From Roseobacter insulae (GTDB taxonomy: Bacteria; Pseudomonadota; Alphaproteobacteria; Rhodobacterales; Rhodobacteraceae), in assembly GCF_019375555.1 (NCBI RefSeq), contig NZ_JAHXDN010000002.1, positions 806,001 through 870,000 on the forward strand: a DNA stretch of 64,000 nucleotides, in the 5' to 3' direction. Both the position numbers and the translations under genes were made by a program. Under the pieces are notes generated by a model that saw only the letters and a list, made by a program, of their open reading frames with translations, was not told where the DNA came from and did not search any database. Positions 38,686-55,347 of the stretch are shown piece after piece; within the stretch, counting starts at the first letter, position 1; each line of letters opens with the position of its first letter.

Positions 38686-39915
38686 TCAAAGGTCAGGCGC
38701 GATCGGCATATCCACAGAGCCGTCGAGATAGGTCGCCGGACCGTCCGCATTGGGCATCATGTCCCACTCGAAAATGTCGTTGGGCAGCCAGAGCGTGGCG
38801 CAGGCGTTGGGAATGTCCACCACCCCCGAGATATGTCCCTGCACCGGCGCCGTTCCGAGAATGGAATAGGCCTGCGCGCCCGTATAGCCGAACTTCTTGA
38901 GGTACTCGATGGCGTTGAGACAGGCCTGCCGGTAGGCGATGTGAACGTCGAGGTAGTGCTGCTCGCCGCTCTCGTCCACGGAGATACCTTCGAAGATCAG
39001 GAAGTCGTCGTACTGGGGTTTGATGGGCGAGGGTTTGAAGATCGGGTTCTTTACCCCGTATTTTTCCATGCCGCCCTTGATGACATCGACTTTCAGATGC
39101 AGCCATCCCGCCATTTCGATGGCACCGCAGAAGGTGATCTCCCCATCGCCCTGGCTGAAGTGCAGATCGCCCATCGACAGGCCAGCGCCATCCACATAGA
39201 CGGGGAAATAGATCTTGCAGCCGCGGCTCAGATCCTTGATGTCGCAGTTGCCACCATGTTCACGCGGCGGCACCGTGCGGGCGGCTTCTGTCGCGGCCTT
39301 GTCGCGCGCCTCACCCTGCATTGCACCCATATGCGCGCTTTGCGTGTTGGGCAGGGCAGCCAGCGGCGGCACACGCTCCGGGTCGGTATTGAAAAGCTTG
39401 GTCTCGCGGCTGTTCCACATGTCCAGCATCTTGGCGTCAGGCAGGCAGCCGATCAGCCCGGGATGGATGAGACCTGCGTACTTCACGCCCGGCACGTGGC
39501 GGGATTTGGTGAACATACCGTCGAAATCCCAGATCGACTTTTGCGCCGACGGGAAATGATCCGTCAGAAATCCGCCGCCGTTGTTCTTGGAGAAAAACCC
39601 GTTGAAGCCCCAGTTCATCTCTTCCTTGGCGCCAATGTCCAGAATGTCGACAACCAGCAGGTCGCCCGGTTCGGCCCCCTTCACACCGATGGGTCCGGAA
39701 AGATAGTGCACTTGCTCCAGTTCCACGTCGCGTACGTCAGAGGCGTCATCGTCGTTCTTGATCTGCCCACCCGTCCAGTCGTAGGTCTCGATCTTGAAAT
39801 CGTCACCCGGGGCGACCCAGATGTTGATCGGGATGTCGGGATGCCAGCGATTATGGATATTCTCGTTGGTATGCGGGCTTTCGCTGAGATCCACCGAAAT
39901 CAATGTATCTGCCAT
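38686..39915 (-). CDS. fmdA: Formamidase
   Basis: The 409-residue acetamidase/formamidase hydrolyses formamide (and some short amides) to ammonia and the acid. Family motifs include HNRWHPDIP, GVKGAEPGDLLVVDILDIG, HPGLIGCLPD, PREHGGNCDIKDL and HFSQGDGEITFCGAIE. It is the sixth gene of a leftward unit behind a five-gene ABC transporter, and fmdB follows. The arrangement suggests that the transporter brings in formamide or acetamide, which this enzyme converts to ammonium for growth. Confidence 0.94.
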   Translation of the reverse strand: MADTLISVDLSESPHTNENIHNRWHPDIPINIWVAPGDDFKIETYDWTGGQIKNDDDASDVRDVELEQVHYLSGPIGVKGAEPGDLLVVDILDIGAKEEMNWGFNGFFSKNNGGGFLTDHFPSAQKSIWDFDGMFTKSRHVPGVKYAGLIHPGLIGCLPDAKMLDMWNSRETKLFNTDPERVPPLAALPNTQSAHMGAMQGEARDKAATEAARTVPPREHGGNCDIKDLSRGCKIYFPVYVDGAGLSMGDLHFSQGDGEITFCGAIEMAGWLHLKVDVIKGGMEKYGVKNPIFKPSPIKPQYDDFLIFEGISVDESGEQHYLDVHIAYRQACLNAIEYLKKFGYTGAQAYSILGTAPVQGHISGVVDIPNACATLWLPNDIFEWDMMPNADGPATYLDGSVDMPIAPDL

Positions 39916-39948
39916 GGGGTAGGTCCTCTCTCTCTTACTGTCTTGAAG

Positions 39949-40638
39949 TCAAACGGATAGAAATTTCGACACGCGGGCTTCGTCGATGCCATCACGCGGG
40001 CTGTCGTGTACAAAGGTGCCATTCTCGATCACGATCACCCGGTCCGCGACATCGAGCGCGAAGCTCAACACCTGTTCGGAGACCACGATCGTGAGGCGCT
40101 TCTCATCGCGAATGCGGCGCAGCGTGCGGGCCATTTCACGGATGATCGAGGGTTGGATACCTTCGGTAGGTTCATCGAGCAGCAGCACCTTCGGTTCGCT
40201 CGCCAGCGCCCGCGCTATGGCGAGTTGCTGTTGCTGTCCGCCGGAGAGGTTGCCGCCGCGCCGTGATTTCATCTCCAACAGAACAGGGAACAACTCGTAG
40301 ATGTCCTCAGGCACGGTCTTGGTGCCGGTTGTGGTGAGACCCGTTTCGATGTTTTCGCGCACGGTCATCGCGGAAAAGATCATGCGGCCCTGCGGCACGT
40401 AGGCGATACCGGAGGCCACGCGCTGGTGCGGTTTCATGCCCAGCACCGAGGTGTCACCGATCCAGGCATCGCCGCCCTTTTCCGGCACGATGCCCATGAG
40501 GGTTTTCATCAGCGTGGTTTTTCCCATGCCGTTGCGGCCCATGATCGCCACGATCTCGGCGGGTTTTACATCGAGGCTGATCCCATGCAGGACTTCAGAC
40601 TCGCCGTAGGCCGCGCGGAGGTTCTGGACAGACAGCAT
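39949..40638 (-). CDS. ABC transporter ATPase, UrtE-like (amide transporter)
   Basis: This 229-residue ATPase of the branched-chain amino acid/urea class has Walker A GRNGMGKTTLMKTL, signature LSGGQQQQLAIARAL and Walker B VLLLDEPTEGIQ. It acts with the UrtD-like ATPase next to it to drive the two permeases. It lies 11 bases from the UrtD-like gene on one side and about 33 bases from formamidase on the other. Confidence 0.88.
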   Translation of the reverse strand: MLSVQNLRAAYGESEVLHGISLDVKPAEIVAIMGRNGMGKTTLMKTLMGIVPEKGGDAWIGDTSVLGMKPHQRVASGIAYVPQGRMIFSAMTVRENIETGLTTTGTKTVPEDIYELFPVLLEMKSRRGGNLSGGQQQQLAIARALASEPKVLLLDEPTEGIQPSIIREMARTLRRIRDEKRLTIVVSEQVLSFALDVADRVIVIENGTFVHDSPRDGIDEARVSKFLSV

Positions 40639-40649
40639 AGCAGTTCCTT

Positions 40650-41399
40650 TCAGTGGCCAAGATAGACTTCGATGACTTTCGGATCGCTCTGCACCCGCTC
40701 CATCGAGCCTTCGGACAGGGTCTTGCCCTGGTGCAGGACGGTCACGCGCGTGGCGATATCGGCGACAAAGCCCATGTCATGTTCGATCACGATGACCGAG
40801 CGGTCGGTGATGATCTTGTTGAGCAGTTCGGCGGTTTTCCTGCGCTCTGCCACCGACATTCCCGCAACAGGTTCGTCGAGCATCAAAAGCTCCGGATCCT
40901 GGATAAGCAGCATCCCGATTTCCAGCCATTGCTTTTGCCCGTGGCTCAGGTACGCGGCCTTCTCCTCGAGCAGAGTATCGAGGAAGATCGTCTCGGCGAT
41001 CTCCTGGATGCGCAGTTTGACCGTGTCGTTGCGACGGAATGTCAGCGCGCCGAAGACGCTGTAGCCGTGCGGGTACGACAGTTCGAGGTTTTCGAACACG
41101 GTGAGGTCTTCGTAAACCGAGGGGGTCTGGAACTTGCGGCCCACGCCGGCGTGTACGATCTGGTCCTCGCGCATGGTCAGCAACTCGTTGCCCTTGAAAT
41201 TGACGGAGCCGCTCGTGGCCCTGGTGCGTCCGCAGATGAGATCAAGAACCGTGGTCTTGCCTGCGCCATTGGGGCCTATGATCACGCGGCATTCGTTGGG
41301 CTCGACATAGAAGCTGAGGTCATCGACCGCCTTGAACCCGTCGAAGGAGACGGTCAGCCCTTCAACGGAGAGGACGAAATTGGGATTGTGGTCCAGCAT
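40650..41399 (-). CDS. ABC transporter ATPase, UrtD-like (amide transporter)
   Basis: The 249-residue ATPase has Walker A GPNGAGKTTVLDL, an LSHGQKQWLEIGMLL signature in place of LSGGQ (typical of UrtD), and Walker B LLMLDEPVAGM. It pairs with the UrtE-like ATPase. It is the fourth gene of the leftward operon. Confidence 0.88.
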   Translation of the reverse strand: MLDHNPNFVLSVEGLTVSFDGFKAVDDLSFYVEPNECRVIIGPNGAGKTTVLDLICGRTRATSGSVNFKGNELLTMREDQIVHAGVGRKFQTPSVYEDLTVFENLELSYPHGYSVFGALTFRRNDTVKLRIQEIAETIFLDTLLEEKAAYLSHGQKQWLEIGMLLIQDPELLMLDEPVAGMSVAERRKTAELLNKIITDRSVIVIEHDMGFVADIATRVTVLHQGKTLSEGSMERVQSDPKVIEVYLGH

Positions 41400-41410
41400 C
41401 TGTCTGCCTC

Positions 41411-42550
41411 CTATTCCGCTGCCGCGCGGGCGGTGTCGTCGGCAGGACCGACATCAGCTGATTTTCGCGATAAAAGCCTGTCGATGCGCGGCGCCACGTG
41501 ATCGGCATAAAGCCCGGCCAGCCCGTTGGGAAAGAGCATCACGACAGCGATGAAAAGGCCGCCGAGGCCGAACAGCCACAGCTCCGGGAAGCTTTCGGAC
41601 AGGGACGTCTTGGCCCAGTTCACCAGAAGCGCACCGTAGACCGCGCCGATGATGGACAGGCGGCCCCCGACGGCGCAGAAGATCACCATCTCAATCGACG
41701 GCACGATCCCGACGAGCGTGGGAGACATGAAGCCAACCTGCAGGGTGAACATCGCGCCACCGATCCCCGCGAAGGCCGCCCCGAGGCAGAAGATGAAGAT
41801 CTTGAAGCTCGCCACATCGTAGCCCGAGAAGCGCACCCGATCCTCCTGATCCCGCATCGCGATGAGCAAACGGCCCAGTTTCGATTTCCGCACGAATTGC
41901 GCAATCAACAGGCAGGAAAACAGGAGCACGCCGTTGACATAATAGAGCGTTTCCTTCGCCGCATCGGTGCGAATGTCCCACCCTTGCAGCGTGCGCAGGT
42001 CGGTGATGCCATTCACGCCGCCGGTGAAACCCTGCTGGCCGATGATGAGGATCGTCAGGATCGCGGCGAAGGCCTGCGTGATAATTGCGAAGTAGACCCC
42101 ACCCACGCGCCGCCGGAACATGGCCACACCGATGATGAAGGCAAACATAACCGGGACCGCGACCACGGCTAATAGTGCGAAGGTCAGCGTGTTGAACGGC
42201 TCCCACCACCAGGGCAGGGCGGTGAGCTGATTCCAGTCCATGAAGTCGGGAATGCCCGGCGTGGACTGGATAGCGGTATTCTCGGGTGTCGAGGCTTCCA
42301 GCTTGAGAAACATCGCCATGCAGTAGCCACCCAATCCGAAGAACACGCCCTGACCGAGGCTGAGGATGCCACCCGCACCCCAGCAGAGCACGAGGCCCAC
42401 GGCCACGAAGGCATATGTCAGGTACTTGCCGAACAGGTTCAGCCGGAAGCTGTCCAGCGTCAGCGGCAGTACGATGAAGACCACCGCGGCAAGGACAGCG
42501 AAGCCGATGATATCCTGCCGGGTGAAAAGGCGGTTGGACGCGATGCTCAT
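41411..42550 (-). CDS. ABC transporter permease, UrtC-like (amide transporter)
   Basis: The 379-residue membrane protein has about ten helices and the LivM/UrtC motifs WGAGGILSLGQGVFFGLGGYCMAMFL and FSGYDVASFKIFIFCLGAAFAGIGGAMF. It forms the pore with the UrtB-like permease. It lies 11 bases before the UrtD-like gene in the same operon. Confidence 0.88.
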   Translation of the reverse strand: MSIASNRLFTRQDIIGFAVLAAVVFIVLPLTLDSFRLNLFGKYLTYAFVAVGLVLCWGAGGILSLGQGVFFGLGGYCMAMFLKLEASTPENTAIQSTPGIPDFMDWNQLTALPWWWEPFNTLTFALLAVVAVPVMFAFIIGVAMFRRRVGGVYFAIITQAFAAILTILIIGQQGFTGGVNGITDLRTLQGWDIRTDAAKETLYYVNGVLLFSCLLIAQFVRKSKLGRLLIAMRDQEDRVRFSGYDVASFKIFIFCLGAAFAGIGGAMFTLQVGFMSPTLVGIVPSIEMVIFCAVGGRLSIIGAVYGALLVNWAKTSLSESFPELWLFGLGGLFIAVVMLFPNGLAGLYADHVAPRIDRLLSRKSADVGPADDTARAAAE

Positions 42551-42562
42551 CAGTCAGGTTCC

Positions 42563-43489
42563 TTACTTGCGCAGTTTGAGAGAGAAGAGACCCTGCGGAC
42601 GGATCATCAGGATGCCGACCACCACCAGCAGCGTCAGCACCTTGGCCATCGAGCCCGAGAGGAAAAACTCCATGATCGACTGGGCCTGACTGATCGAGAA
42701 GGCGCTGGCGATGGTGCCCAGCAAGCTGCCCGCGCCGCCAAAAACCACGACAAGGAACGTGTCGACGATGTACAGTTGCCCTGCGGTAGGCCCGGTGGAT
42801 CCGATCATCGTAAAGGCAGACCCGGCAACGCCCGCGACCCCGCAACCGATGCCAAAGGTCAGCCGGTCGGTCCAGGCGGTGTTGATGCCGACCGCATCGG
42901 CCATCACGCGGTTCTGACTGATCGCGCGGACCTGCAGACCCCATGACGAGCGGAACATGAGATAGTAGACAGCCAGCGAGATCGCGACCGCGAGCACCAT
43001 GACAAAAATACCGTTGATCGGTATCTCGACCAGATCGGTCAGGGGCAGGGAGCCCATCATCCAGTCGGGAATGCTCACGCCGACTTCCCGCGCGCCGAAA
43101 ACGCTGCGGTAGACCTGCTGAAGGATAAGGCTCAGGCCCCACGTCGCAAGCAGGGTGTCCAGCGGGCGTTTGTACAAATGCCTGATCATGGACCATTCTA
43201 CAAAAAGGCCCAGAAGCCCCGAGGCGAAAAAGGCGACAATCATGGCGATGAAAAAGTAGATACTGAACAAGCCGGGAAGGTAGGCTTCGAACAGCGTGGA
43301 GGTCAGATAGGTCATATAGGCGCCGAGGATCATGAATTCCCCGTGCGCCATGTTGATCACGCCCATTTGCCCAAAGATGATCGCGAGGCCCAGAGCCATG
43401 AGCACGAAGACGGAAAACAGGATCAGGCCTGCAAAACCCTGCATGGCGAAAATAGCGCCGAGTTCGCTCATTGAATAATCGGCAAACAT
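42563..43489 (-). CDS. ABC transporter permease, UrtB-like, short form (amide transporter)
   Basis: The 308-residue LivH-type permease has GQMGVINMAHGEFMILGAYMTYL and GVAGSAFTMIGSTGP. It lacks the roughly 340-residue periplasmic N-terminal part seen in the second UrtB at 52129-54090. The two transporters therefore differ in architecture as well as sequence. It is separated from the binding-protein gene by 75 bases holding a strong hairpin. Confidence 0.88.
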   Translation of the reverse strand: MFADYSMSELGAIFAMQGFAGLILFSVFVLMALGLAIIFGQMGVINMAHGEFMILGAYMTYLTSTLFEAYLPGLFSIYFFIAMIVAFFASGLLGLFVEWSMIRHLYKRPLDTLLATWGLSLILQQVYRSVFGAREVGVSIPDWMMGSLPLTDLVEIPINGIFVMVLAVAISLAVYYLMFRSSWGLQVRAISQNRVMADAVGINTAWTDRLTFGIGCGVAGVAGSAFTMIGSTGPTAGQLYIVDTFLVVVFGGAGSLLGTIASAFSISQAQSIMEFFLSGSMAKVLTLLVVVGILMIRPQGLFSLKLRK

Positions 43490-43528
43490 AGGTTGTCTCC
43501 GTGTGGTGTCGGGTTTGAAGAAGGGAGG

Positions 43529-43552
43529 AAGGCGCGCGTCGCAGCGCGCCTT
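43529..43552 (-). other. Intercistronic hairpin after the binding-protein gene
   Basis: A perfect 9-bp stem (AAGGCGCGC with GCGCGCCTT, 6-base loop) lies between the binding-protein stop and the permease start. No T tract follows on the minus strand. Such hairpins often protect the upstream message so that the binding protein is made in excess. Confidence 0.6.
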
Positions 43553-43564
43553 GCCCGGGGCGCT

Positions 43565-44836
43565 TTACTGGTAACCTTCCGGGAATGGATCAGGCTCCAC
43601 CAACTCTGCGGTCTCAAACACGACCTCGTACTGGCCATCGGCCTGTGCGCGGCCCACGCGGGTTTTCGACCACAGGTGATGGTTTTCGTGCACCTTCACG
43701 TAGCCTTCGGGGGCGGAGTCCAGTTCGACACCGATCTGCGCCTCGCGCACTTTGTTGATGTCGAAAGATCCTGCTTTTTCGACCGCTGCCTTCCACAGCC
43801 AGGGGCCGAGATACGCGGCCTGCGTGACGTCGCCGATGACGATGTCCTCGCCCCACATCTCTTTGAAAGCCTTGACGAATTCGAGATTGTTATCGTTTTG
43901 AAGGCTTTGGAAGTATTTCATGCATGCATAAGTGCCTTCGATGTTCTCGCCACCTATGCCGCGGATTTCGTCCTCGGTCACGGAAATGGTCAGCACCAAG
44001 GGGCTTTCGCCAGTCGGGTCGATACCGGCAGCCTTCAGTTGCTTGTAGAAGGCCACGTTGGAGCCCCCGACAACGATCGCGTAGATCACATCGGGCTTGC
44101 GCAGGCGGATCTTGTTGATGACGGAGTTGAACTGCGTGTGACCCAGCGGATAATATTCCTCGCCCACGACCTTGGAGCCTTCGAGGAAGTTCTCAATATG
44201 CTTGCGCGCGATCTTGTTCGAGGTGCGGGGCCAGATGTAGTCGGACCCGAGCAGATAGAAGGTCTTGGCGCCCTTGGTCTCGGAGACCCAGTCGAGGCCG
44301 GCTATGATCTGCTGTGTGGCTTCCTGACCGGTGTAGATGACGTTGGGCGACTGTTCGAGCCCTTCGTAGAACGTCGGGTAGTAGAGGAAACCGTTATGCT
44401 GTTCAAAGACAGGCAGCACGGCCTTTCGGCTTGCCGAGGTCCAGCAGCCCATGACGGAGGCCACCTTGTCGTTGACCAGAAGCTTACGGGCTTTTTCAGC
44501 AAAAGTTGGCCAATCGGATGCGCCGTCTTCCTGAATGTATTCGATCTTGCGGCCGAGGATACCGCCCTGCGCATTGATCTGGTCAATCGCCAGTTTCTCG
44601 GCCTGGACCGATCCGGTCTCGGAGATTGCCATGGTCCCGGTCACCGAATGCAGGATGCCGATCGTGACGGTATCATCGGTCACGGCCAGGCCGGTGGTAT
44701 TCACTTCGGCGGTCGGAAAGTCTGCGGCGCGCAAGCCCTTTGGCAGAAACAGCGATGCGGTCATGGCGGCTGTACCCGCCATGAATGCACGACGGCTCGG
44801 GCCTGCCATCTTTGCGGGTATCTTTTTGTCAGACAT
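43565..44836 (-). CDS. UrtA-like substrate-binding protein with Tat signal (amide transporter)
   Basis: The 423-residue periplasmic binding protein has a twin-arginine motif (SRRAFMAG at about residues 14-21) followed by a hydrophobic stretch. The mature part begins like UrtA/FmdD: TIGILHSVTGTMAISET, DWPTFAEKARKLL and TSASRKAVLPVFEQHNGFLYYP. It shares many positions with the second binding protein at 50779, so the two are paralogues, but the export signal differs (Tat versus Sec). It heads the operon that ends in formamidase, so it probably binds a short amide. Confidence 0.9.
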   Translation of the reverse strand: MSDKKIPAKMAGPSRRAFMAGTAAMTASLFLPKGLRAADFPTAEVNTTGLAVTDDTVTIGILHSVTGTMAISETGSVQAEKLAIDQINAQGGILGRKIEYIQEDGASDWPTFAEKARKLLVNDKVASVMGCWTSASRKAVLPVFEQHNGFLYYPTFYEGLEQSPNVIYTGQEATQQIIAGLDWVSETKGAKTFYLLGSDYIWPRTSNKIARKHIENFLEGSKVVGEEYYPLGHTQFNSVINKIRLRKPDVIYAIVVGGSNVAFYKQLKAAGIDPTGESPLVLTISVTEDEIRGIGGENIEGTYACMKYFQSLQNDNNLEFVKAFKEMWGEDIVIGDVTQAAYLGPWLWKAAVEKAGSFDINKVREAQIGVELDSAPEGYVKVHENHHLWSKTRVGRAQADGQYEVVFETAELVEPDPFPEGYQ

Positions 44837-44920: not shown

Positions 44921-44938
44921 ATACGTCGATTGACGTAT
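44921..44938. promoter_or_regulatory. Perfect inverted repeat in the divergent promoter, candidate operator
   Basis: ATACGTCGATTGACGTAT is a 7-bp perfect inverted repeat with a 4-base spacer. It lies 85 bases before the binding-protein start (leftward) and 130 before the sensor start (rightward). This is a plausible site for the LuxR-type regulator at 48399-49310. No copy was found before urtA at 50779. Confidence 0.5.
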
Positions 44939-45067: not shown

Positions 45068-48000
45068 ATGGCGACGACGTATCGCGCGACAAAGGAAAAA
45101 AGACAGTACAACCGCTGGGTTGCCAACGAGACTAAAGAAGACTTCGCACTACGGTTCACCGCGCACAGGGCGCGTCGCTGGTCGTTCGCGCGCGTGACCA
45201 ACACGGCCATCGGCTCGATCTCCTTTCTCGCGCTGGAAGCCATCGGTGGCGCGATAACGTTGTCTTACGGTTTCGATATCGCTGTGACTGCAATCATGCT
45301 GGTGGGTGCCTTTCTTTTCCTCACCGCCCTGCCCATCAGCTATTATGCTGCCCGCTATGGCGTTGACATCGACCTGCTGACGCGCGGCGCGGGCTTTGGC
45401 TATATCGGCTCGACCATCACGTCGCTGATCTACGCGACATTCACCTTCATCTTTTTTGCGCTCGAAGCCGCCATTCTTGCGCTGGCCCTGGATTACAGTC
45501 TGGGGATTCCTCTGGTTGTCGGCTATTTGATCAGCGCGATTGTCGTGATCCCGCTTGTCATTAACGGTTTCTCGAAGATTTCCGCGTTTCAGGCCTGGAC
45601 ACAGCCGCTCTGGGTTCTGTTGCACATCGCGCCATTTATCATTCTTGGCGTGGTGGGCTACGATGTCGCGGCCTGGTCCAGTTTCGAGGGCAATGCCGAT
45701 CCTGAAGGGGCGACCAGCAGCAAGCTGATCATGCTCGGCGCTGCCTCAGGCGTCATCTTTTCCCTGATTGCGCAGGTCGGCGAGCAAGTGGACTACCTGC
45801 GGTTTCTGCCTGTGCCGCGCACGCGGGTGGAGCGACGCCGCTGGTGGGCCTCGCTGCTGGTTGCCGGCCCGGGCTGGTCAATTCTGGGCATGCTCAAGAT
45901 GCTTGCCGGGTCCTACCTCGTGGTCATTGCCATCGCGAACGGGGTGCCCGAAGCACAGGCCACCGATCCGACACGCATGTACGAGACAGTGTTTGAGATG
46001 GCGCTTCAGTCGCCCTGGGCGGTCCTGTTGCTGACAAGCACCTTTGTCATTCTCAGCCAGCTCAAGATCAACGTGACCAATGCCTACGCGGGCTCGATCG
46101 CATGGTCGAACTTTTTTTCCCGTCTGACCCACGCCCATCCCGGCCGGGTTGTCTGGCTGGTGTTTAACGTGGGCATCGCGCTGATGCTGATGGAGCTTGG
46201 CGTCTTCGGGGCGCTCGAAGCGACACTTGCGCTTTATTCGCATGTCGCGCTGGCATGGATCGGCGCGCTGGTGGCTGATCTGATCGTCAACAAGCCACTG
46301 GGTCTCAGCCCGCCGGGCATCGAATTCCGGCGCGCGCACCTCTATGATTTCAACCCGGTTGGCATTGTCTCGACCGCCACGGCCTGCCTGTTGTCCCTGC
46401 TCGCCTTCGGCGGGGTGTTCGGCCCAATGATCGAAGCCCTGTCCAGCTTTGTCGCCCTCGGCAGCTCTTTCCTGCTTGCCCCGGTGATCGCCTGGGCCAC
46501 AGATGGGCGCTACTATATCGCCCGGCCGGCGCCGGTGGACGTGGCCCGCACCTGCATCGTCTGCGATTACAGTTTTGATCCGCCCGACATGACGCATTGC
46601 CCGTTTCACTCAGGTCCGATCTGTTCGCTGTGCTGCACGCTGGACAGCGCCTGCCGTGACAGTTGCAAACCGCACGCCCGCCTCGACAACGCCACGCGAA
46701 GCCTGCTGACCCGGCGGCTGCCCGCGCCGGTCGCGCAGGCGCTGATGTCGCGCATGTCACGCTTTGTCCTGAGCACCACCTTCATTGGTGCAGCCTTTGG
46801 CGGCCTTCTGCTGTTCGTGCGCGACCTGCGCTACGCGGAGAACTTCGACGCGATCCTCTGGGTTGTCTTCACAATGGTGCTTATCGTGAGCGGCATCACG
46901 GTCTGGATGTACCTGCTGATTTCAGAAAGCCAGCGACAGGCCCGCAACGAAGCCGAAAAACAGACCGAGCGGCTGCTGTTCGAAGTGCGGGCGCATGAGC
47001 GCACCGACAAGGAACTGCAGCAGGCCAAGGAAAAGGCGGAGGCGGCCAATCTGGCCAAGACGCGATACATGACCGGGCTCAGCCACGAACTGCGCACCCC
47101 GCTCAATTCCATTTACGGTTTCGCGCAGATCCTCGAACGGGACGAGGACATGCCCGCGCGCAGGCTCAATGCAATCACGACGATCCGGCGCAGCAGCGAA
47201 CACCTGGCGGGTCTGATCGAGGGCCTTCTCGACATCTCAAGGATTGAGGCGGGCAGACTCAAACTGAGCCGCGACCGCATCAACCTTCGGGTGTTCCTGC
47301 AGCAGGTCAGCTCGATTTTCGAAGAAGCGGCGCGCGAGAAGAACCTCAGTTTCGACATGGAAACCAGCAAGGTCCTGCCGGTCTGGGTCACATTCGATGA
47401 AAAACGCCTGCGACAGATCATCATCAACCTGCTGTCGAATGCCATTCGCTACACGGATACCGGTGAAGTCTCCATGCGGATCAAGTATCGCAACGAGGTG
47501 GCGGTGATTGAAGTCAGCGATACCGGGTGCGGCATTCCCGAAGCGGACCGCGCGCGGATCTGGGAGCCGTTCGAGCGTGGCAAGGGATCGCAGGTACAGG
47601 GATCCGGCCTCGGCCTGACAATCACCAAGCTGTTGGTGGAGATCCTGGGCGGTGAGATCGAGATGGAAAGCGTGGAAGGCAAGGGCAGCCTGTTCCGGGT
47701 GCGCGTGATGCTGCCCGCCGTGCCGATGGACACGGGGGACAGTCTTGCGGGTACGGCTGTTGAAACCGAACCGGTGGCGGTTTCAGGTTTCGTGGGATCC
47801 CGAAAGACATTGCTCATCGTGGACGACGACCTCAACCATCTGAGCCTTGTCGATAATTTCCTGTCGCCCATGGGATTTGGTGTGCTGACCGCCACCAGTG
47901 CCGAGCAGGCGATGGGCATGTTGGAAGATATCACGCCCGATCTGTTTGTACTGGACATCGACCTGCCCGGTCTGGATGGCTACTCGCTGGCCGAAAAACT

Positions 48001-48412
48001 GCGCCAGGGCGCGCATCGGTCCTCTCCGATCATCATGATCTCCGGGCACGCGATGGACGGTCATATTCCCACGCCCGAGGTACCGCTATGCGACGCCTTC
48101 ATCGCGAAACCGTATAATCTGGACGATCTTCTGCTGCGCATTGCGGAAATCCTGCGGCTGGACCTCACGTATAAGGAAGCGCCGGATTTGAAGGCGAAAC
48201 AAACCACCGAGTTGTCGGAGGCAGACCGCCGCGACCTGATCACTCTGGCACGCAATGGAATGGCCCGGGCCCTGACGGATCGCATTGCCGAAATGGCCGA
48301 ACGGGGGTGCCTGCGGGGTCCTATGCTGGTGCGGCTCAACAAGATGGTCTCGGTTTTCGACCTGCCGGGAATTGCCGATGTGCTCGAGGAGGTGACCGAT
48401 GCCGCCCGTTGA
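45068..48412 (+). CDS. NCS1 permease-like sensor, hybrid histidine kinase/response regulator
   Basis: The 1114-residue fusion begins with an NCS1 (cytosine/purine permease)-like membrane domain of about 12 helices (to about residue 480). A cysteine cluster at about 496-533 reads CIVCDYSF..CPFH..CSLCC..C..C, followed by two more helices (about 567-620), a coiled coil, and a histidine kinase with His673 (GLSHELRTPLNSIYGF). The ATP-binding domain has NLLSNAIRY, DTGCGI and GSGLGLTI; the receiver phosphosite is Asp963 (LFVLDIDLPGLDG). A helical tail of about 90 residues follows. The partner regulator gene overlaps by 14 bases. It probably senses urea, an amide or a nucleobase-like ligand. Confidence 0.88.
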   Translation: MATTYRATKEKRQYNRWVANETKEDFALRFTAHRARRWSFARVTNTAIGSISFLALEAIGGAITLSYGFDIAVTAIMLVGAFLFLTALPISYYAARYGVDIDLLTRGAGFGYIGSTITSLIYATFTFIFFALEAAILALALDYSLGIPLVVGYLISAIVVIPLVINGFSKISAFQAWTQPLWVLLHIAPFIILGVVGYDVAAWSSFEGNADPEGATSSKLIMLGAASGVIFSLIAQVGEQVDYLRFLPVPRTRVERRRWWASLLVAGPGWSILGMLKMLAGSYLVVIAIANGVPEAQATDPTRMYETVFEMALQSPWAVLLLTSTFVILSQLKINVTNAYAGSIAWSNFFSRLTHAHPGRVVWLVFNVGIALMLMELGVFGALEATLALYSHVALAWIGALVADLIVNKPLGLSPPGIEFRRAHLYDFNPVGIVSTATACLLSLLAFGGVFGPMIEALSSFVALGSSFLLAPVIAWATDGRYYIARPAPVDVARTCIVCDYSFDPPDMTHCPFHSGPICSLCCTLDSACRDSCKPHARLDNATRSLLTRRLPAPVAQALMSRMSRFVLSTTFIGAAFGGLLLFVRDLRYAENFDAILWVVFTMVLIVSGITVWMYLLISESQRQARNEAEKQTERLLFEVRAHERTDKELQQAKEKAEAANLAKTRYMTGLSHELRTPLNSIYGFAQILERDEDMPARRLNAITTIRRSSEHLAGLIEGLLDISRIEAGRLKLSRDRINLRVFLQQVSSIFEEAAREKNLSFDMETSKVLPVWVTFDEKRLRQIIINLLSNAIRYTDTGEVSMRIKYRNEVAVIEVSDTGCGIPEADRARIWEPFERGKGSQVQGSGLGLTITKLLVEILGGEIEMESVEGKGSLFRVRVMLPAVPMDTGDSLAGTAVETEPVAVSGFVGSRKTLLIVDDDLNHLSLVDNFLSPMGFGVLTATSAEQAMGMLEDITPDLFVLDIDLPGLDGYSLAEKLRQGAHRSSPIIMISGHAMDGHIPTPEVPLCDAFIAKPYNLDDLLLRIAEILRLDLTYKEAPDLKAKQTTELSEADRRDLITLARNGMARALTDRIAEMAERGCLRGPMLVRLNKMVSVFDLPGIADVLEEVTDAAR

Positions 48413-49310
48413 CAGCACAGAGCGCCACATCGCGTTGGTGGTCGATGACAGCCCGGACACGCTAAGTATGATCAGCACCGCGCTGGAGGAAAACGGCATC
48501 AGCGCTGTCGTGGCCACCAGCGGGCATGCGGCGCTCGATCTGGCCAGGCGCATTCTGCCGGATGTCATTCTGCTCGACGCGATGATGCCGGAAATCGACG
48601 GGTTTGAAACCTGCGCGATGCTGAAGGCGGACGAACGTCTGGCCTATGCTCCGGTGATCTTCATGACCGGGCTTACCGATTCCGAACATATTGTCCGCGG
48701 CCTTCAGGTTGGTGGCGTCGATTACGTGATGAAACCTGCGGTCATCGACGAATTGATCGCACGGATCACCACCCATATCATCAACGCTCAGGCGATCCAA
48801 AGCGCTCGCCAGGCGCTTGATGCATCAGGGCGCTCGGTCATCGCCGTGGCCCCGTCGGGCGCGCTGCTCTGGGGCAGCCCCAAGGCGCTTCGTTTGCTGG
48901 CCGAACCGGCAAAGGACGACGCGACGACGGCATTGGACACCCCGTTGTTCCTCAGCTGGCTTTCGTCGAACGCTCAACGCCCCGCCTCGAAAAGCAGCAG
49001 CTTTTGCCATGAAACCTTCGTGCTGGATTTCATCGGCTCATCGCCGTCCGGAGAGATGTTTTTGAAGATTCAGCAAAAGGGTCATCTGCGGCCCTACCAG
49101 CATCTGGGAGAAGTCTTTGGCCTGACACCGAGGGAGGCAGAGGTGCTGTACTGGCTGTCGCTGGGCAAGGCCAACCGCGATATTGCACAGATCCTGTCGC
49201 TCAGCAGCCGAACGATCAACAAGCATCTGGAACAGGTATTCCAGAAAATGGGCGTGGACAACCGGACATCGGCCGCAGTTTCAGCGGATCGGGCGATGAA
49301 CCAGTTGTAA
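48399..49310 (+). CDS. LuxR-family response regulator
   Basis: The 303-residue regulator has a receiver with Asp60 (VILLDAMMPEIDGF), a middle segment of about 90 residues that looks PAS-like (SGRSVIAVAPSGALLWGSPKALRLL), and a C-terminal LuxR helix-turn-helix (LTPREAEVLYWLSLGKANRDIAQIL, INKHLEQVFQKMGVDNRTSAA). It overlaps the sensor gene and has GAGGAGG upstream of its start, so it is made with the sensor. It is likely to control the two neighbouring transporters. Confidence 0.88.
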   Translation: MPPVDSTERHIALVVDDSPDTLSMISTALEENGISAVVATSGHAALDLARRILPDVILLDAMMPEIDGFETCAMLKADERLAYAPVIFMTGLTDSEHIVRGLQVGGVDYVMKPAVIDELIARITTHIINAQAIQSARQALDASGRSVIAVAPSGALLWGSPKALRLLAEPAKDDATTALDTPLFLSWLSSNAQRPASKSSSFCHETFVLDFIGSSPSGEMFLKIQQKGHLRPYQHLGEVFGLTPREAEVLYWLSLGKANRDIAQILSLSSRTINKHLEQVFQKMGVDNRTSAAVSADRAMNQL

Positions 49311-49416
49311 ATCGGGCCAGCAGCAAGCTGGGCGTCCAAATTGAAACAGATTGGTGTGCTGACAAGGTGACGGTTACGCTGATGGTCCCGACACCCGCTT
49401 TTCAAAGGGTTCTACA

Positions 49417-49750
49417 TTGCCCTATCCGGATATCATCGCGGCTTTTCCCGCCATTGAGGTACCCTTTCCGGACCACGTGGTGACAACCGCAGTTGAAAAA
49501 TCGGACGCCGGATTGGTTGCGTTCTTCACATTCCATGAAGAGATGGAACTTCCCCCATGCACATGGGGCGCAATGGGGTACCGTGGTTGAAGGCGGGATC
49601 GAATTCACCATTGGCGGAGAGGTCAGGGTTTACAGACAGGGTGACAGCTACTCAATTCACTCTGGGGTCGAGCACGGGGCGATGATCGAAGCTGGCACGC
49701 GGGTGATCGACGTTTTTGAGGAATTCGACCGATATGCCATCAAAGCATGA
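49417..49750 (+). pseudogene. Small cupin protein with a frameshift
   Basis: A TTG at 49417 with AAAGGG 7 bases upstream opens a frame PYPDIIAAFPAIEVPFPDHV.. that runs to EEMELPP. A one- or two-base change in the run of five C's at 49552-49556 shifts it, and the rest of a cupin (HAHGAQWGTVVEGGIEFTIGG, HSGVEHGAM, VIDVFEEFDRY) continues in the next frame to 49750. Together they make a normal cupin of about 110 residues. It is either a pseudogene or a sequencing error in the C run. Confidence 0.72.
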
Positions 49751-50087
49751 CAGGAGGCGCAGTGCCCGGAGCGACTGATCCGGACACCCGCGTCGGATCA
49801 CCGGTTTGCAAATCCCGGTCGCCCTCTCGGGTGTCTGCGCGAGGCCAAAGGTCGATATTGAACATGGTATACGGTCGATGATGCCATTGGTGGCCCGGCG
49901 GCAGAACGCCCCGCGCGAGCTGGATTGGAACAGCATAGCTGCATCAGGTGGCATTGGTTACTGACCGCACGGCAGCGTCATGCCGCGTGACTGATCACGC
50001 CAGCATCGGGGGAACCTGTTGGGCGGCCTGAGCCGCGGTTGGGTGTGACCGGCGAAGTCTGGTCGCCGACTTGACAGGCGATTTCTT
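49751..50087. other. Stretch with no recognisable gene
   Basis: About 340 bases between the broken cupin and the small secreted protein. Short frames exist on both strands, but none has a good start, a family match or a neighbour-like composition. No strong hairpin or promoter was seen. Confidence 0.5.
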
Positions 50088-50489
50088 GTGCGGAATGCTC
50101 ATTTCGTGAGCAGAATAAAAACAGTAGTCGCGGCAGGCGTCTTTTTCTCTTCGGTCGCGGGTTCGCTTCAGGCGCATTCGGATATGAGCCGCGCCTTTGC
50201 AGGCTGCGCCGGGCGCTTTTCTGCGGAGACTGAGCACGCATGGTTGACGGGCAGTGATCGCGCGGATCATTTGCAAAACCGGCGCGCCACCTTTGTCTCG
50301 CTTCTGGAGGCGACGATTGATGAAGGTGATCAGCGCAGGATGCTGAGCTACAGAATAGACGCGAAATTCGCGCATGCGGCTTTGTTGCAGACCGCCACAT
50401 TTGGCCAGGATGATGACCATGCGGCCGCGGCGCGTCAGTTGGCGGATCTGTATCTGCTGAACTGCAGCCGTCTTTTGCTGGACAGCTAA
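50088..50489 (+). CDS. Small secreted protein, unknown function
   Basis: The protein is about 133 residues from a GTG at 50088, or 127 from a second GTG at 50106 whose product (MSRIKTVVAAGVFFSSVAG) looks more like a signal peptide. The likely cut follows SLQA. The mature part has a pair of Cys (one in FAGCAGRF, one in LLNCSRLL) that could form a disulfide, and is mainly helical. No family is recognised. It lies just upstream of the urtA promoter region. Confidence 0.6.
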   Translation: MRNAHFVSRIKTVVAAGVFFSSVAGSLQAHSDMSRAFAGCAGRFSAETEHAWLTGSDRADHLQNRRATFVSLLEATIDEGDQRRMLSYRIDAKFAHAALLQTATFGQDDDHAAAARQLADLYLLNCSRLLLDS

Positions 50490-50652
50490 GGCCGGTTCGA
50501 GCGCAAACCGGACCAATTATTAGGCACTTCTGTGAGAATGGCCTCAAGTTTAGGCACCTGCGCGGAGTTTAGCCGCGCCGCGCCCCCTGGCGACTCCTGC
50601 ACCACCGAAAAACAACCTAACCAAAGCATGGGCTGAAAAGGCCATTGAGACA

Positions 50653-50696
50653 CGTGCGACGGTGCTGGCCTAGACAACCACAACCACCATCGCACG
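50653..50696. repeat. Inverted repeat upstream of urtA
   Basis: CGTGCGACGGTG and CACCATCGCACG form 12-bp arms with one mismatch and a 20-base loop, ending about 82 bases before the urtA start. It may be an operator or a leader hairpin. Its sequence is not related to the repeat at 44921. Confidence 0.45.
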
Positions 50697-50778
50697 CCGC
50701 AATAAATTGCGTAGGCGGCATATGGGGGAGTTTCACATGCTTCGCAAGACCGCCGCGCGTCGTAAGAGAGGATTTACG

Positions 50779-52053
50779 ATGTCACGAAAACTATTTTGCA
50801 CCACTGCCGCGGCAGTTCTTGTCGGCGCGGTGCCCGCGCTTGCGGATTGCCCGGTGAAGGTAGGGGTGCTGCATTCCTTGTCCGGTACGATGGCGATTTC
50901 AGAAACAACGCTGAAAGACACCATGGAGATGCTCATTGAACAGCAGAATACCAAGGGCGGCGTTTTGGGCTGTGAGCTGGAAGCAGTGGTTGTGGATCCG
51001 GCATCCGACTGGCCGCTGTTTGCGGAAAAGGCGCGTGAGCTGCTGACCGTGCACGAGGTTGACGTGATCTTCGGCAACTGGACATCGGTGTCCCGGAAAT
51101 CCGTGCTGCCCGTGATCGAAGAACTCAACGGGCTTCTCTTCTACCCTGTGCAGTACGAGGGCGAGGAAAGCTCCAAAAACGTCTTTTACACCGGTGCCGC
51201 GCCGAACCAACAGGCGATCCCGGCCACCGATTACTTCCTCGAAGAGCTGGAAGTGGAGAAATTCGCGCTGCTTGGCACCGACTATGTCTATCCGCGGACG
51301 ACAAACAACATTCTGGAAAGCTACCTGCAACAGAAAGGTATTCCCGCCGAGGATATCTTCGTGAACTACACGCCTTTTGGCCATTCGGACTGGTCGAAAA
51401 TCGTTGCAGATGTCGTGGCGCTTGGCGCTGACGGCAAGAAGGTGGGCGTGATTTCCACGATCAATGGCGATGCCAATGTCGGCTTTTACAAGGAACTCGC
51501 GGCCGCCGGTATCTCTGCCGATGATATCCCGGTTGTTGCCTTCTCCGTTGGAGAGGAAGAGCTGTCCGGTCTCGATACCGCCAACCTTGTTGGCCATCTG
51601 GCCGCGTGGAACTACTTCCAGTCCGCTGAGTCCGATGCAAATGTCGAGTGGGTCGACGCCTGGAAAGCCCGCATGGGTGATGAGCGTGTGACCAATGACC
51701 CGATGGAGGCGCATTACATCGGCTTCAACATGTGGGTGAATGCCGCAACAGCCGCCGGTACAACCGATGTCGATGCGGTCCGCGCGGCGATGTATGGACA
51801 GGAGTTTCCGAACCTGACAGGCGGCACGGCGGTCATGTTGCCGAACCATCACCTCGCGAAACCGGTGCTGATTGGCGAGATCCAGGAGGATGGGCAGTTT
51901 GACATCATCTCCCAGACCAAAGAGGTCGCCGGTGATGCATGGACGGACTTCCTGCCGGAATCGGCGGTCCTGAAATCCGATTGGAAAGAGCTCGGCTGCG
52001 GTATGTACAACACCGACACAGGCTCCTGCGTGCAGATCAAGTCGAATTACTGA
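50779..52053 (+). CDS. urtA: Urea-type ABC transporter substrate-binding protein UrtA
   Basis: The 424-residue binding protein has a Sec signal peptide (MSRKLFCTTAAAVLVGAVPALA) and UrtA motifs: VGVLHSLSGTMAISETTLKD, DPASDWPLFAEKAREL, TSVSRKSVLPVIEELNGLLFYPVQYEGEE. The start at 50779 has AGAGAGGA upstream; a longer in-frame start at 50707 is not supported. UrtA captures urea at low concentration. It heads a five-gene operon. Confidence 0.93.
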   Translation: MSRKLFCTTAAAVLVGAVPALADCPVKVGVLHSLSGTMAISETTLKDTMEMLIEQQNTKGGVLGCELEAVVVDPASDWPLFAEKARELLTVHEVDVIFGNWTSVSRKSVLPVIEELNGLLFYPVQYEGEESSKNVFYTGAAPNQQAIPATDYFLEELEVEKFALLGTDYVYPRTTNNILESYLQQKGIPAEDIFVNYTPFGHSDWSKIVADVVALGADGKKVGVISTINGDANVGFYKELAAAGISADDIPVVAFSVGEEELSGLDTANLVGHLAAWNYFQSAESDANVEWVDAWKARMGDERVTNDPMEAHYIGFNMWVNAATAAGTTDVDAVRAAMYGQEFPNLTGGTAVMLPNHHLAKPVLIGEIQEDGQFDIISQTKEVAGDAWTDFLPESAVLKSDWKELGCGMYNTDTGSCVQIKSNY

Positions 52054-52128
52054 TCCGGCTGCATGACACTGTCGGGGCGCGCGTCTGTCGCCGCGTCCCG
52101 ATGCAAACTCCCAAGGGATACCCCCCAC

Positions 52129-54090
52129 ATGCTCTTCGTCCTTCGACGGTTGCTCGCCGGCGTTCTGATGGTCGCGGCCTCAGGCCTTGCGGCGGTTGCG
52201 CAAGATACCGATGCGCCGATCCAGACGCTTTTGCAGACCCACGCAGAGGCGATTGCAAAATCGTCACGCAAGACCATTGGGCCTGCAATCGACGCGCTGG
52301 CTGCCAGCGGGTTGGATGATGCCCAAACCGTTTTGCAGCGCTGGCAGGACAAAGAGATGTGGTTTGACAAGGAAACCGGCCTTTTCGTCTTTGCCGAGAA
52401 AGCCGACAACAAGACCCTGACCTTGTTCGATGTGGCGGGGGGCGGCACTATCGGCACGGCGCCGAAGAAATCCTACAAGCAGTTGAAACCCAACTCAGGC
52501 ATTCGCAGCATGATCGGTGCGGCACTTGTCCAGTTCCAGCTCAACAGCCCGGACCCGCTCACGCGCGCCACCGCGCTGAATGCCATCGAGCGGGAGGCGG
52601 AAGCGTCTCACCTCACTGCGCTGCGCGGCGCCATCGACAGCGAGGAAAATCCTTTCCTCAAAACCCGTAAAATCCGTCTTGAGAGGCTGTTGACCATCCG
52701 TTTCGCCGAAGACGATGATACGCGCATTGCCGCCATTAAGAGTTTCGCGGGCGATCTTGGGGTCGATGTGCGCGCTGCATTGAACCCGCTGGTTGCCACC
52801 CGAATTGAAGCGGCGCGGGACGTCCCGGAGGGTGCCATGCCCTTGAAGGTCGGGTCGGATGCGCTGCCGCGCGATGCGGCCTATGCGATCCTCGTGGCGC
52901 AGGATGATGCGCCCGCGCGTGTCTCGCCCGGCGCGCTGCGCGACGCATTGGTTGCCAACATCAAGGATGACCAGATTGCGGGCATTCAGGTCGCAACGCT
53001 GGTTACGGACGAGGCGCGCGCCGATGTCTACGGGCTTCTGGCCGGGGAGGGTCGCGTCGCGCCACTCGTCACCGAGGCGGACGTGACGGCCTCGCTTGAG
53101 CGTTTCCGGTTCTTTGCAACCTACACATCCGCGCCCTTGGCCGTGGCGCTTGCCGCGCAGGCGACGCTTGACGACATCGAAGCCACCGTCGCGCTGAACC
53201 AGACCGCCGATCTGGTGCTGGATGCCCTCTCGCTGGCCTCAATCTATTTCCTCGCCGCGATTGGTCTGGCAATCACCTTCGGCGTCATGGGCGTCATCAA
53301 CATGGCGCATGGGGAGTTCATCATGATGGGCGCGTACACCGGCTATGTCGTCCAGCTGTTCGTGCCTGACTATACGCTGTCAATCCTGCTTGCGATCCCG
53401 CTGGCATTCGCGGTCACCTTCGCCGCGGGCGTTGCACTCGAACGTCTGGTGATCCGCTGGCTCTATCACCGCCCGCTGGAAACGCTGCTGGCGACCTTCG
53501 GCGTCTCCATCGCGCTGCAACAACTCGCCAAGAACATCTTCGGCACACAGGCCCGGCCGCTGACCGCGCCGGGGTGGCTGGATGGGTCGTGGGTTCTTAA
53601 TGACATCGTTTCGATCAGCTACATCCGGATCGCGATCTTCGCGCTGGCGCTTCTTTTCCTGGCGCTCTTTCTGTTCGTAATGAACCGCACGCGCCTGGGT
53701 CTTGAGGTGCGTGCGGTCACGCAAAACCCGCGTATGGCGGCCTCCATGGGCATCAACCCGGACCGTATCAACATGCTGACCTTTGGCTTTGGCTCCGGCA
53801 TCGCGGGCATCGCGGGCGTGGCCATCGGGCTTTACGCGAAAGTCACGTCCGAAATGGGCACAGACTATATCGTGCAAAGCTTCATGACGGTTGTGGTGGG
53901 CGGTGTCGGCAATATCTGGGGCACGCTTCTGGGGGCCACCATGGTTGGTTCGCTGCAAAAGGGTATCGAGTGGTTGAACCCGTCCAATACGCTGGCGGCG
54001 CAGACATATATGATCCTGTTCATCATCCTCTTCATCCAGTTCCGGCCACGCGGTATCATCGCGCTCAAAGGTCGGGCGGCGGAGGCATAG
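52129..54090 (+). CDS. urtB: Urea-type ABC transporter permease UrtB, long form
   Basis: The 653-residue protein has a signal-like start (LLAGVLMVAASGLAAVAQ), a helical periplasmic-type region up to about residue 360, and a LivH-type permease domain (GVMGVINMAHGEFIMMGAYTGYV, GSGIAGIAGVAIGLYAK). The long N-terminal part is typical of UrtB in urea systems. The ATG at 52129 follows AAGGGA. The gene is followed directly by urtC. Confidence 0.93.
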   Translation: MLFVLRRLLAGVLMVAASGLAAVAQDTDAPIQTLLQTHAEAIAKSSRKTIGPAIDALAASGLDDAQTVLQRWQDKEMWFDKETGLFVFAEKADNKTLTLFDVAGGGTIGTAPKKSYKQLKPNSGIRSMIGAALVQFQLNSPDPLTRATALNAIEREAEASHLTALRGAIDSEENPFLKTRKIRLERLLTIRFAEDDDTRIAAIKSFAGDLGVDVRAALNPLVATRIEAARDVPEGAMPLKVGSDALPRDAAYAILVAQDDAPARVSPGALRDALVANIKDDQIAGIQVATLVTDEARADVYGLLAGEGRVAPLVTEADVTASLERFRFFATYTSAPLAVALAAQATLDDIEATVALNQTADLVLDALSLASIYFLAAIGLAITFGVMGVINMAHGEFIMMGAYTGYVVQLFVPDYTLSILLAIPLAFAVTFAAGVALERLVIRWLYHRPLETLLATFGVSIALQQLAKNIFGTQARPLTAPGWLDGSWVLNDIVSISYIRIAIFALALLFLALFLFVMNRTRLGLEVRAVTQNPRMAASMGINPDRINMLTFGFGSGIAGIAGVAIGLYAKVTSEMGTDYIVQSFMTVVVGGVGNIWGTLLGATMVGSLQKGIEWLNPSNTLAAQTYMILFIILFIQFRPRGIIALKGRAAEA

Positions 54091-55347
54091 ATGGCTTACC
54101 TTGCTCTCACCCCGAGACGGCGGCCGCTGGTTGCGCGGTACCCGTCAATCGCCATTTTCCTCGGCATTCTGGCGCTCTTCACTGTCGGCGTGACGGTGCT
54201 GGCCGAAGGCTTCGGCATCGGCCTCATCTCAACAAGTTTCGTCAAGACGCTGGGCAAGACCTTATGCCTTTGTCTCGTTGCCCTGGCGATGGATCTGGTC
54301 TGGGGCTATTGTGGCATCCTTTCGCTGGGGCACATGGCGTTTTTCGGCATCGGCGGATACGCCATCGGCATGTGGCTGATGTATGCCCGCACAGAGCTTA
54401 TCGTGATCGAGAGCCTTGCAGCGGCGCCGCTGCCCCCGACACCGCAGGAAATCTCCGACGGGATCGCCACACAGATCTTCGGGGTGGTGGGGGCGTCGGA
54501 GTTTCCGCCAATATGGTCTGTCGCGCATTCATTGCCGCTGCAGCTCGCGGCAGTGGTGCTTGTGCCCGGGGTACTGGCGCTGGTCTTCGGGTGGCTCGCC
54601 TTCCGAAGCCGGGTCACCGGGGTTTACCTGTCCATCCTGACACAGGCCATGACACTGGCCCTGTCGCTCTACCTGTTCCAGAACGACAGCGGATTGCGTG
54701 GCAACAACGGCCTGTCGGGGTTGCAAAACCTGCCCGGCCTGGATGCGATCCCGCAATCGACCATCTCGATTGTCTTCTTCTGGGCCTCTGCCTTTGCGCT
54801 TGGCCTGGGCTACCTGGTCTGTGCCTGGGTTGTGTCCGGCAAGTTTGGCTCCGTGATCCGCGCCATTCGCGATGATGAGGCGCGGGCGCGCTTCCTGGGC
54901 TATTCGGTCGAGGCTTACAAGCTCTTCATTTTCACCTTCACCGCTGTGATCGCGGGTATCGCGGGCGCGCTTTATTACCCGCAGGCGGGCATCATAAACC
55001 CGGCGGAAATCGCACCCATCGCATCGATCTATCTTGCTGTCTGGGTGGCCATCGGGGGGCGTGGCAAGCTGTACGGGGCGGTGATCGGTGCTGCATTTGT
55101 CTCGCTGCTGTCTTCATGGTTCACCGGAGGGCAGGCACCGGATATCAACCTTGGGGTCTACACCATCCAATGGGTGGACTGGTGGACCATCCTGCTTGGA
55201 CTTTCCTTTGTCGCGGTCACCCTTTTTGCGCCACGCGGCATCGGCGGTCTGTTTGATCTGATCGCCGAACGCCGCAGCCCCGACCGCCATGGCGCGGCGC
55301 TTGGCCCGGACGCCGGGGCATTGCGCGAAAAGGAGGCGGATGCATGA
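54091..55347 (+). CDS. urtC: Urea-type ABC transporter permease UrtC
   Basis: The 418-residue LivM-type permease has MDLVWGYCGILSLGHMAFFGIGGYAIGMW and RFLGYSVEAYKLFIFTFTAVIAGIAGALYYP, with about ten helices. It begins immediately after the urtB stop, and its stop overlaps the start of urtD by four bases, so the run is translationally coupled. Confidence 0.93.
   Translation: MAYLALTPRRRPLVARYPSIAIFLGILALFTVGVTVLAEGFGIGLISTSFVKTLGKTLCLCLVALAMDLVWGYCGILSLGHMAFFGIGGYAIGMWLMYARTELIVIESLAAAPLPPTPQEISDGIATQIFGVVGASEFPPIWSVAHSLPLQLAAVVLVPGVLALVFGWLAFRSRVTGVYLSILTQAMTLALSLYLFQNDSGLRGNNGLSGLQNLPGLDAIPQSTISIVFFWASAFALGLGYLVCAWVVSGKFGSVIRAIRDDEARARFLGYSVEAYKLFIFTFTAVIAGIAGALYYPQAGIINPAEIAPIASIYLAVWVAIGGRGKLYGAVIGAAFVSLLSSWFTGGQAPDINLGVYTIQWVDWWTILLGLSFVAVTLFAPRGIGGLFDLIAERRSPDRHGAALGPDAGALREKEADA

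Follow-up and report, generated by a model that had tools for sequence, protein, structure and literature searches.

A hybrid histidine kinase with an NCS1-type membrane domain, linked to amide and urea genes, in Roseobacter insulae

The sensor gene and its neighbors

We examined a window of 64,000 nucleotides from Roseobacter insulae (contig NZ_JAHXDN010000002.1, positions 806,001 to 870,000; "the window" means this whole stretch, numbered from its first letter), in which one gene encodes a hybrid sensor histidine kinase carrying an NCS1-type membrane domain (Table 1). The first-pass annotation had read this gene as a permease-like domain fused to a cysteine cluster and a hybrid kinase, and this held, as the frame is open over its full length and both the Pfam domains and a structure model agree. 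The three domains that define a hybrid histidine kinase (HisKA, HATPase_c and receiver) were all found, and their catalytic residues are conserved. The kinase histidine and receiver aspartate had been named correctly, His673 being invariant in 136 of 136 aligned fused homologues and Asp963 in all 134 of those possessing a receiver. Invariance was counted throughout in these 136 proteins; the alignment has 137 rows including L194, which was left out of the counts because it is a standalone, unfused NCS1-like protein of 497 residues (the labelling rule had called it amide-linked). A scan of named genomes gave at least 567 relatives, the best 80 of which were kept for locus counts. Since a single open reading frame spans permease to kinase in 78 of these 80 loci (it is broken in L082 and L090), the sensor is not a chance reading frame.

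The amide and urea transporters expected next to the gene were also present. A divergent UrtABCDE-like operon ending in FmdA (38686-44836, minus strand) starts 231 bases from the kinase gene. Downstream, on the plus strand, a second operon (50707-56781) encodes UrtA, UrtB, UrtC, UrtD and a further ATP-binding cassette (ABC) ATPase. From FmdA we infer an amide role for the divergent binding protein.

Table 1. Positions of the sensor gene, its domains and the neighboring features in the window.
Feature	Position	Strand	Basis
Hybrid sensor histidine kinase with NCS1-type membrane domain, 1114 residues	45068-48412	+	open frame; Pfam kinase and receiver domains
NCS1-type 12-helix domain, probable amide/urea receptor, residues 22-480	45131-46507	+	
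Eight invariant cysteines, probable zinc-binding coupling domain, cytoplasmic side, residues 496-533	46553-46666	+	invariance; model
Transmembrane hairpin 13-14 leading into kinase, residues 562-617	46751-46918	+	model, hydropathy, charge distribution
HisKA dimerisation domain with His673, residues 664-729	47057-47254	+	Pfam PF00512
HATPase_c catalytic domain, residues 777-882	47396-47713	+	Pfam PF02518
Receiver domain (Response_reg) with Asp963, residues 916-1025	47813-48142	+	Pfam PF00072
Palindrome TACGTCGATTGACGTA, predicted regulator binding site between the divergent genes	44922-44937	.	only exact TACG-N8-CGTA in the window
Response regulator, receiver and LuxR-type helix-turn-helix, probable partner	48399-49310	+	PF00072, PF00196; 14-base overlap with kinase gene
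Substrate-binding protein of divergent ABC transporter, UrtA-like	43565-44836	-	PF13433, TIGR03407
ABC permease, UrtB-like	42563-43489	-	TIGR03409
ABC permease, UrtC-like	41411-42550	-	TIGR03408
ABC ATPase, UrtD-like	40650-41399	-	TIGR03411
ABC ATPase, UrtE-like	39949-40638	-	TIGR03410
Formamidase FmdA, probable target gene	38686-39915	-	NF045496 equivalog, E 4.8e-229

Membrane domain, predicted pocket and cysteine domain

The structure model, proposed as a check in the first-pass annotation, consists of a 12-helix LeuT-type fold whose nearest structures are CodB and Mhp1, followed by the cysteine segment and by helices 562-587 and 593-634, where two more helices had been expected. An NCS1-type rather than SLC5-type membrane part had been claimed, with the sensor idea staked on a transporter-family match for residues 1-480. 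Pfam alone gave no such match; the NCS1 assignment came from comparing profiles and structures. With hhalign the domain matched NCS1 at 98.4% (E 5.1e-15; controls below 1%), a match that requires a profile built from 10 to 12 sequences; CodB alone reached only 5.8%. The NCBIfam cytosine permease model matched at E 4.6e-6, far below the family cut-off, while searching the sensor's own genome for PF02133, and sequences in the PDB with the sensor protein and with A3, returned nothing. Profiles and model together support an NCS1-type domain. SLC5, APC and BCCT origins, each below 1% in the profile comparison, were rejected. By counts of invariant positions (71 of 436 in the NCS1 domain, 6 of 66 in HisKA and 15 of 106 in HATPase_c), the membrane domain is as conserved as the kinase. 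Two standalone NCS1-like proteins, L017:1456-2886 (476 residues, no Pfam match) and L194:8949-10442 (497 residues), share 23-26% identity with the membrane part of the sensor; both have arginine at the position equivalent to Lys333, and they could possibly form an uncharacterised transporter group.

The CodB site residues described in the available text of PMC9379551 were mapped onto the sensor by alignment, which runs without net gap from Asn280/Asn335 to Tyr285/Tyr340 and from Phe204/Leu233 to Arg216/Arg245 (CodB/sensor). The CodB pair Arg216-Tyr285 is kept as Arg245-Tyr340, and Gln105 and Ala207 of CodB correspond to Thr126 and Gln236, and the Gln121 position of Mhp1 to Glu133. Thr126, Glu133, Gln236, Arg245, Lys333, Asn335, Asn338 and Tyr340 never vary in the fused homologues. 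Thr278 and Thr279 of CodB, sodium ligands at the Na2 site on transmembrane helix 8 (TM8), align with Lys333 and Ile334, a replacement that speaks against uptake driven by sodium. It is unlikely, in our judgement, that the protein is transporter and sensor in one, importing an amide or urea and signaling during transport. A full fold close to that of CodB in the model, the retained arginine-tyrosine pair and the existence of a paper dealing with CbrA transport and kinase activities (PMC7096432) would all fit such a double role, and proton in place of sodium coupling is conceivable; against it stand the lysine at the sodium site and the dedicated ABC importer next door.

Trp108 and Phe204 of CodB correspond to Phe129 and Leu233, so that the two-aromatic sandwich around the substrate was not found here. 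Leucine occupies position 233 in 134 of 136 proteins, and position 129 is phenylalanine in 129 and leucine in seven. As characterised NCS1 members mostly carry nitrogen heterocycles (PMC13390362, PMC9379551), the sensor might instead detect a nucleobase, hydantoin or other ring compound, with the amide operon as its downstream target. This we regard as improbable, given that one of the two aromatic residues flanking the base in CodB and Mhp1 is leucine here, and given MetT, described as an NCS1 member able to take a non-ring substrate (PMC13390362). Nucleobase genes could still lie in neighbor clusters of other kinds than the amide and urea ones. On alignment and model, the pocket would suit a small polar ligand bound without sodium coupling. 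The earlier suggestion that the permease part senses a nitrogen compound keeps its support from the gene context. Formamide, other short-chain amides and urea are likelier ligands than cytosine or purines, because most members of the family stand beside genes for formamidase, amidase, urea transporters or urease and because Leu233 replaces an aromatic wall of the nucleobase pocket.

The cysteine-rich segment proposed at about residues 496-533 indeed holds eight cysteines (496, 499, 511, 519, 522, 523, 529 and 533), all invariant in 136 of 136 fused homologues, and the cluster is therefore not due to chance. It looks metal-binding, as had been suggested, judging from this invariance and from the model, whose matches are weak and of zinc-finger-like or treble-clef-like kind only; the VIA comparison covered Foldseek's top 307 chains, and kinship with two-zinc treble-clef domains (FYVE, RING, ZZ, LIM) in fold and eight metal ligands is conceivable. 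We read the cluster as a coupling domain that probably binds zinc and faces the cytoplasm. Residues 481-644, modelled as the cysteine domain and helix hairpin, had no Pfam match above cut-off; the four-helix STAC coupling domain itself was not compared. Among 398 genomes (Pseudomonadota, judging from the named relatives), the domain gave 57 strong matches, all inside the sensor family, and three weak ones (E above 0.003) that look like chance; as a mobile module it was rejected for this set. With cysteines so strictly kept and so confined to one family, the domain itself could read the signal, a metal or redox state, leaving the NCS1 part as scaffold or modulator only. We give this little credence, as conservation of the NCS1 domain matches that of the kinase, the genes around it concern amide and urea use, and structural zinc would explain the cysteines.

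Family context and the shared palindrome

Of the 398 genomes, 55 had a match to the sensor, 52 of these to the fused protein; G331, G373 and G425 held partial or standalone matches. FmdA scored above its curated cut-off in 40 of 396 genomes (some match at E of 0.001 or lower in 75), and 39 of these 40 also hold the fused kinase (Fisher p 1.7e-41, not corrected for kinship). Twelve of the 13 kinase genomes without a cut-off FmdA have urea or urease contexts, and the remaining one, G361, has a cut contig. Loci took their context labels from the best BLAST match against a panel of query proteins, with family tests on representatives, and the amide and urea neighbor clusters were annotated one by one.

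In the 80 named loci, a regulator homologue accompanies the kinase in 78 (71 under a stricter spacing rule; L037 and L067 end close after the kinase). FmdA occurs in 68. Where the upstream sequence reaches 9.7 kb or more (67 loci), it is present in 65; the remaining two, L048 and L051, have an aliphatic amidase instead (NF009802 for L048). All 67 except L048 show ABC genes, with a divergent binding-protein gene in 54 by the strict rule. The window and most of the 80 loci (62 by the strict spacing rule) have the binding-protein gene at the head of the divergent operon, an arrangement that would suit a sensor of the loaded ABC binding protein rather than of free ligand. Such indirect sensing is very improbable in view of L048, with its aliphatic amidase beside the kinase and no amide ABC homologue in the locus, and of six loci with urease and no ABC-gene homologue in the stretch fetched.

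Among 58 fused loci from whole genomes, 35 were amide-linked, 11 had a urea-type or amide-type ABC transporter and/or urease, six had urease, and two encoded proteins of 885-894 residues lacking the receiver, with formamidase. L240 was labelled urea-linked, yet its ABC genes are amide-type beside urease. In a rapidly built tree covering 79 of the 137 alignment rows, the urease-linked copies formed one group and the receiver-less copies another, while the urea-transporter copies require four changes among amide-linked ones. Comparing amide- with urea-linked groups for parallel residue switches, we found position 324 altered in each of the four urea groups and positions 83, 169 and 399 in three of them, all outside the mapped pocket residues. 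Positions 235 and 337, which map to the pocket or directly beside it, each change in two urea groups.

The existence of a short clade without the receiver indicates that the family can do without this domain. Its members L203 and L204 (885-894 residues) have a formamidase-family gene close by, and in L203 the next gene encodes receiver and kinase domains, with an OmpR-type regulator beside it. Amide operons of L064, L192, L196 and others also contain an aliphatic amidase (NF009802) and a protein of about 350 residues resembling the last part of ClpA/ClpB ATPases, and the order of the genes recurs. On a Thioclava plasmid the divergent ABC operon is conserved and a formamidase of another family (NF009803) follows the regulator, and on a Rhizobium plasmid the kinase stands in the urea-transporter arrangement. 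L249, L250 and the Tistrella plasmid NC_017957.2 hold orphan kinase-regulator pairs; the sequence retrieved around them shows no marker of amide or urea use, and their ligand may differ or act at a distance. Plasmid copies, among the matches listed, are annotated only generally, e.g. as 'ATP-binding protein' or 'hybrid sensor histidine kinase'.

Dyads were sought in 360 bases around each kinase start, 330 of them upstream. Of 134 homologous upstream regions, 78 contain the palindrome TACG-N8-CGTA, compared with a mean of 0.64 and a maximum of 3 in shuffles, and ATACG-N8-CGTAT recurs in 64 of 134 loci, where shuffles gave at most 4 for any such dyad. The exact site is absent from 37 amide-linked loci; a form with one mismatch occurs in 21 of them (shuffles 2-7), and CGTCA-N2-TGACG is common to 13 (shuffle maximum 2). 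A common site was also sought for the urea-linked copies and not found, as dyads in their upstream regions barely exceed shuffles. The sensor's own genome contains four TACGY-N6-RCGTA sites, compared with 31 matches of the reversed control pattern. In its 16-base TAC-N10-GTA arrangement the site may resemble those of NarL, which would suit a LuxR/NarL-type regulator. A sigma-70 consensus promoter was looked for between the divergent genes and not found.

Elsewhere in the window, the roughly 1.4 kb between the regulator gene and the second urt operon (49311-50706) contain only short overlapping open reading frames of up to 189 residues. A 308-residue frame without Pfam match (57854-58780, minus strand) lies between a cyclase-domain gene (57040-57840) and a pyridoxal phosphate decarboxylase-domain gene (58787-61252).

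Proposed mechanism and relation to known systems

We consider it probable that the protein is an NCS1-fold receptor kinase that binds a short-chain amide or urea and signals through the LuxR-type regulator and the palindrome to the divergent operon, probably telling the cell that formamide or urea is available as nitrogen food. A short-chain amide or urea, with formamide as the first candidate for this subtype, would bind the NCS1-type domain, and the resulting shape change would reach the kinase by way of the eight-cysteine domain in the cytoplasm and helices 13-14. The kinase would then phosphorylate the regulator encoded next to it, and this, bound at 44922-44937, would switch on the divergent uptake and formamidase operon. 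Tool results support the order of the domains, the modelled NCS1-type fold, the invariance of the cysteines, the linkage and co-occurrence with genes for amides and urea, and the recurrence of the palindrome; we infer the ligand, the metal, the direction of control, the route of the phosphate and a sensing in place of a transporting role.

Several observations weigh against this proposal. Pfam searches of residues 1-480 up to E 10 gave no match, PF02133 included, nor did five relatives match that NCS1 family. One-mismatch forms of the palindrome are not in excess in the window (11 versus 8.3 in shuffled sequence), and the exact form is rare in the urea-linked copies (1 of 11 and 0 of 6), in which mapped positions 129 (leucine in 6 of 11), 235 and 337 also vary. 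Four of the 58 loci lack an amide or urea marker (L217 and L247 being cut by contig ends, L249 and L250 not), as does the Tistrella copy. The counts from the 80 named loci are not independent, since these are the closest relatives and many come from one genus, and context is linkage, which does not identify the bound molecule.

A wider reading is about as likely as not. The family may be a further class of transporter-derived receptor kinases across Pseudomonadota, whose sodium-independent NCS1 fold would detect the H2N-C=O moiety common to urea and short amides and whose signal would leave through a two-zinc FYVE/RING-like domain peculiar to the family. Amide and urea regulons would then both be served by a single type of receptor, because the pocket core is identical in both.

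Kinases built on SLC5 and Amt transporters are already known (PMC7096432, PMC9100948, PMC5764959, PMC13022988), and among the open-access papers that our searches listed we found no report of an NCS1-type transporter kinase and no urea or formamide receptor of such kind. CbrA, CrbS and RpuS, described as SLC5/STAC histidine kinases (PMC5715377, PMC9100948, PMC13022988), likewise join a transporter-type membrane domain, a coupling domain and a histidine kinase in one chain linked to nutrient use; unlike them, the sensor has NCS1 for SLC5, the eight-cysteine domain and helix pair for STAC, and amide and urea genes around it. CodB and Mhp1, as NCS1 transporters, have the nearest folds and share the conserved arginine-tyrosine pair and the TM8 asparagine, whereas the sensor is fused to a kinase, has the sodium-site threonines and one aromatic pocket wall replaced, and lacks a Pfam match. 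The family would offer another transporter family for studying how a transporter fold becomes a receptor.

The ammonium sensor kinase of Kuenenia is named Ks-Amt5. It too is a transporter fold turned nitrogen sensor kinase (PMC5764959), with an Amt fold and ammonium where the sensor has an NCS1 fold and probably amides or urea. The fmdCABDEF genes of Methylophilus methylotrophus similarly combine formamidase with amide and urea uptake, and are induced by formamide and urea and repressed by ammonia (PMC10781810); the available text of that source credits them with a putative positive regulator only and mentions no sensor kinase. The sensor family, which predicts its own regulator and binding site, is a concrete candidate for the sensor behind the induction of fmd genes by formamide and urea.
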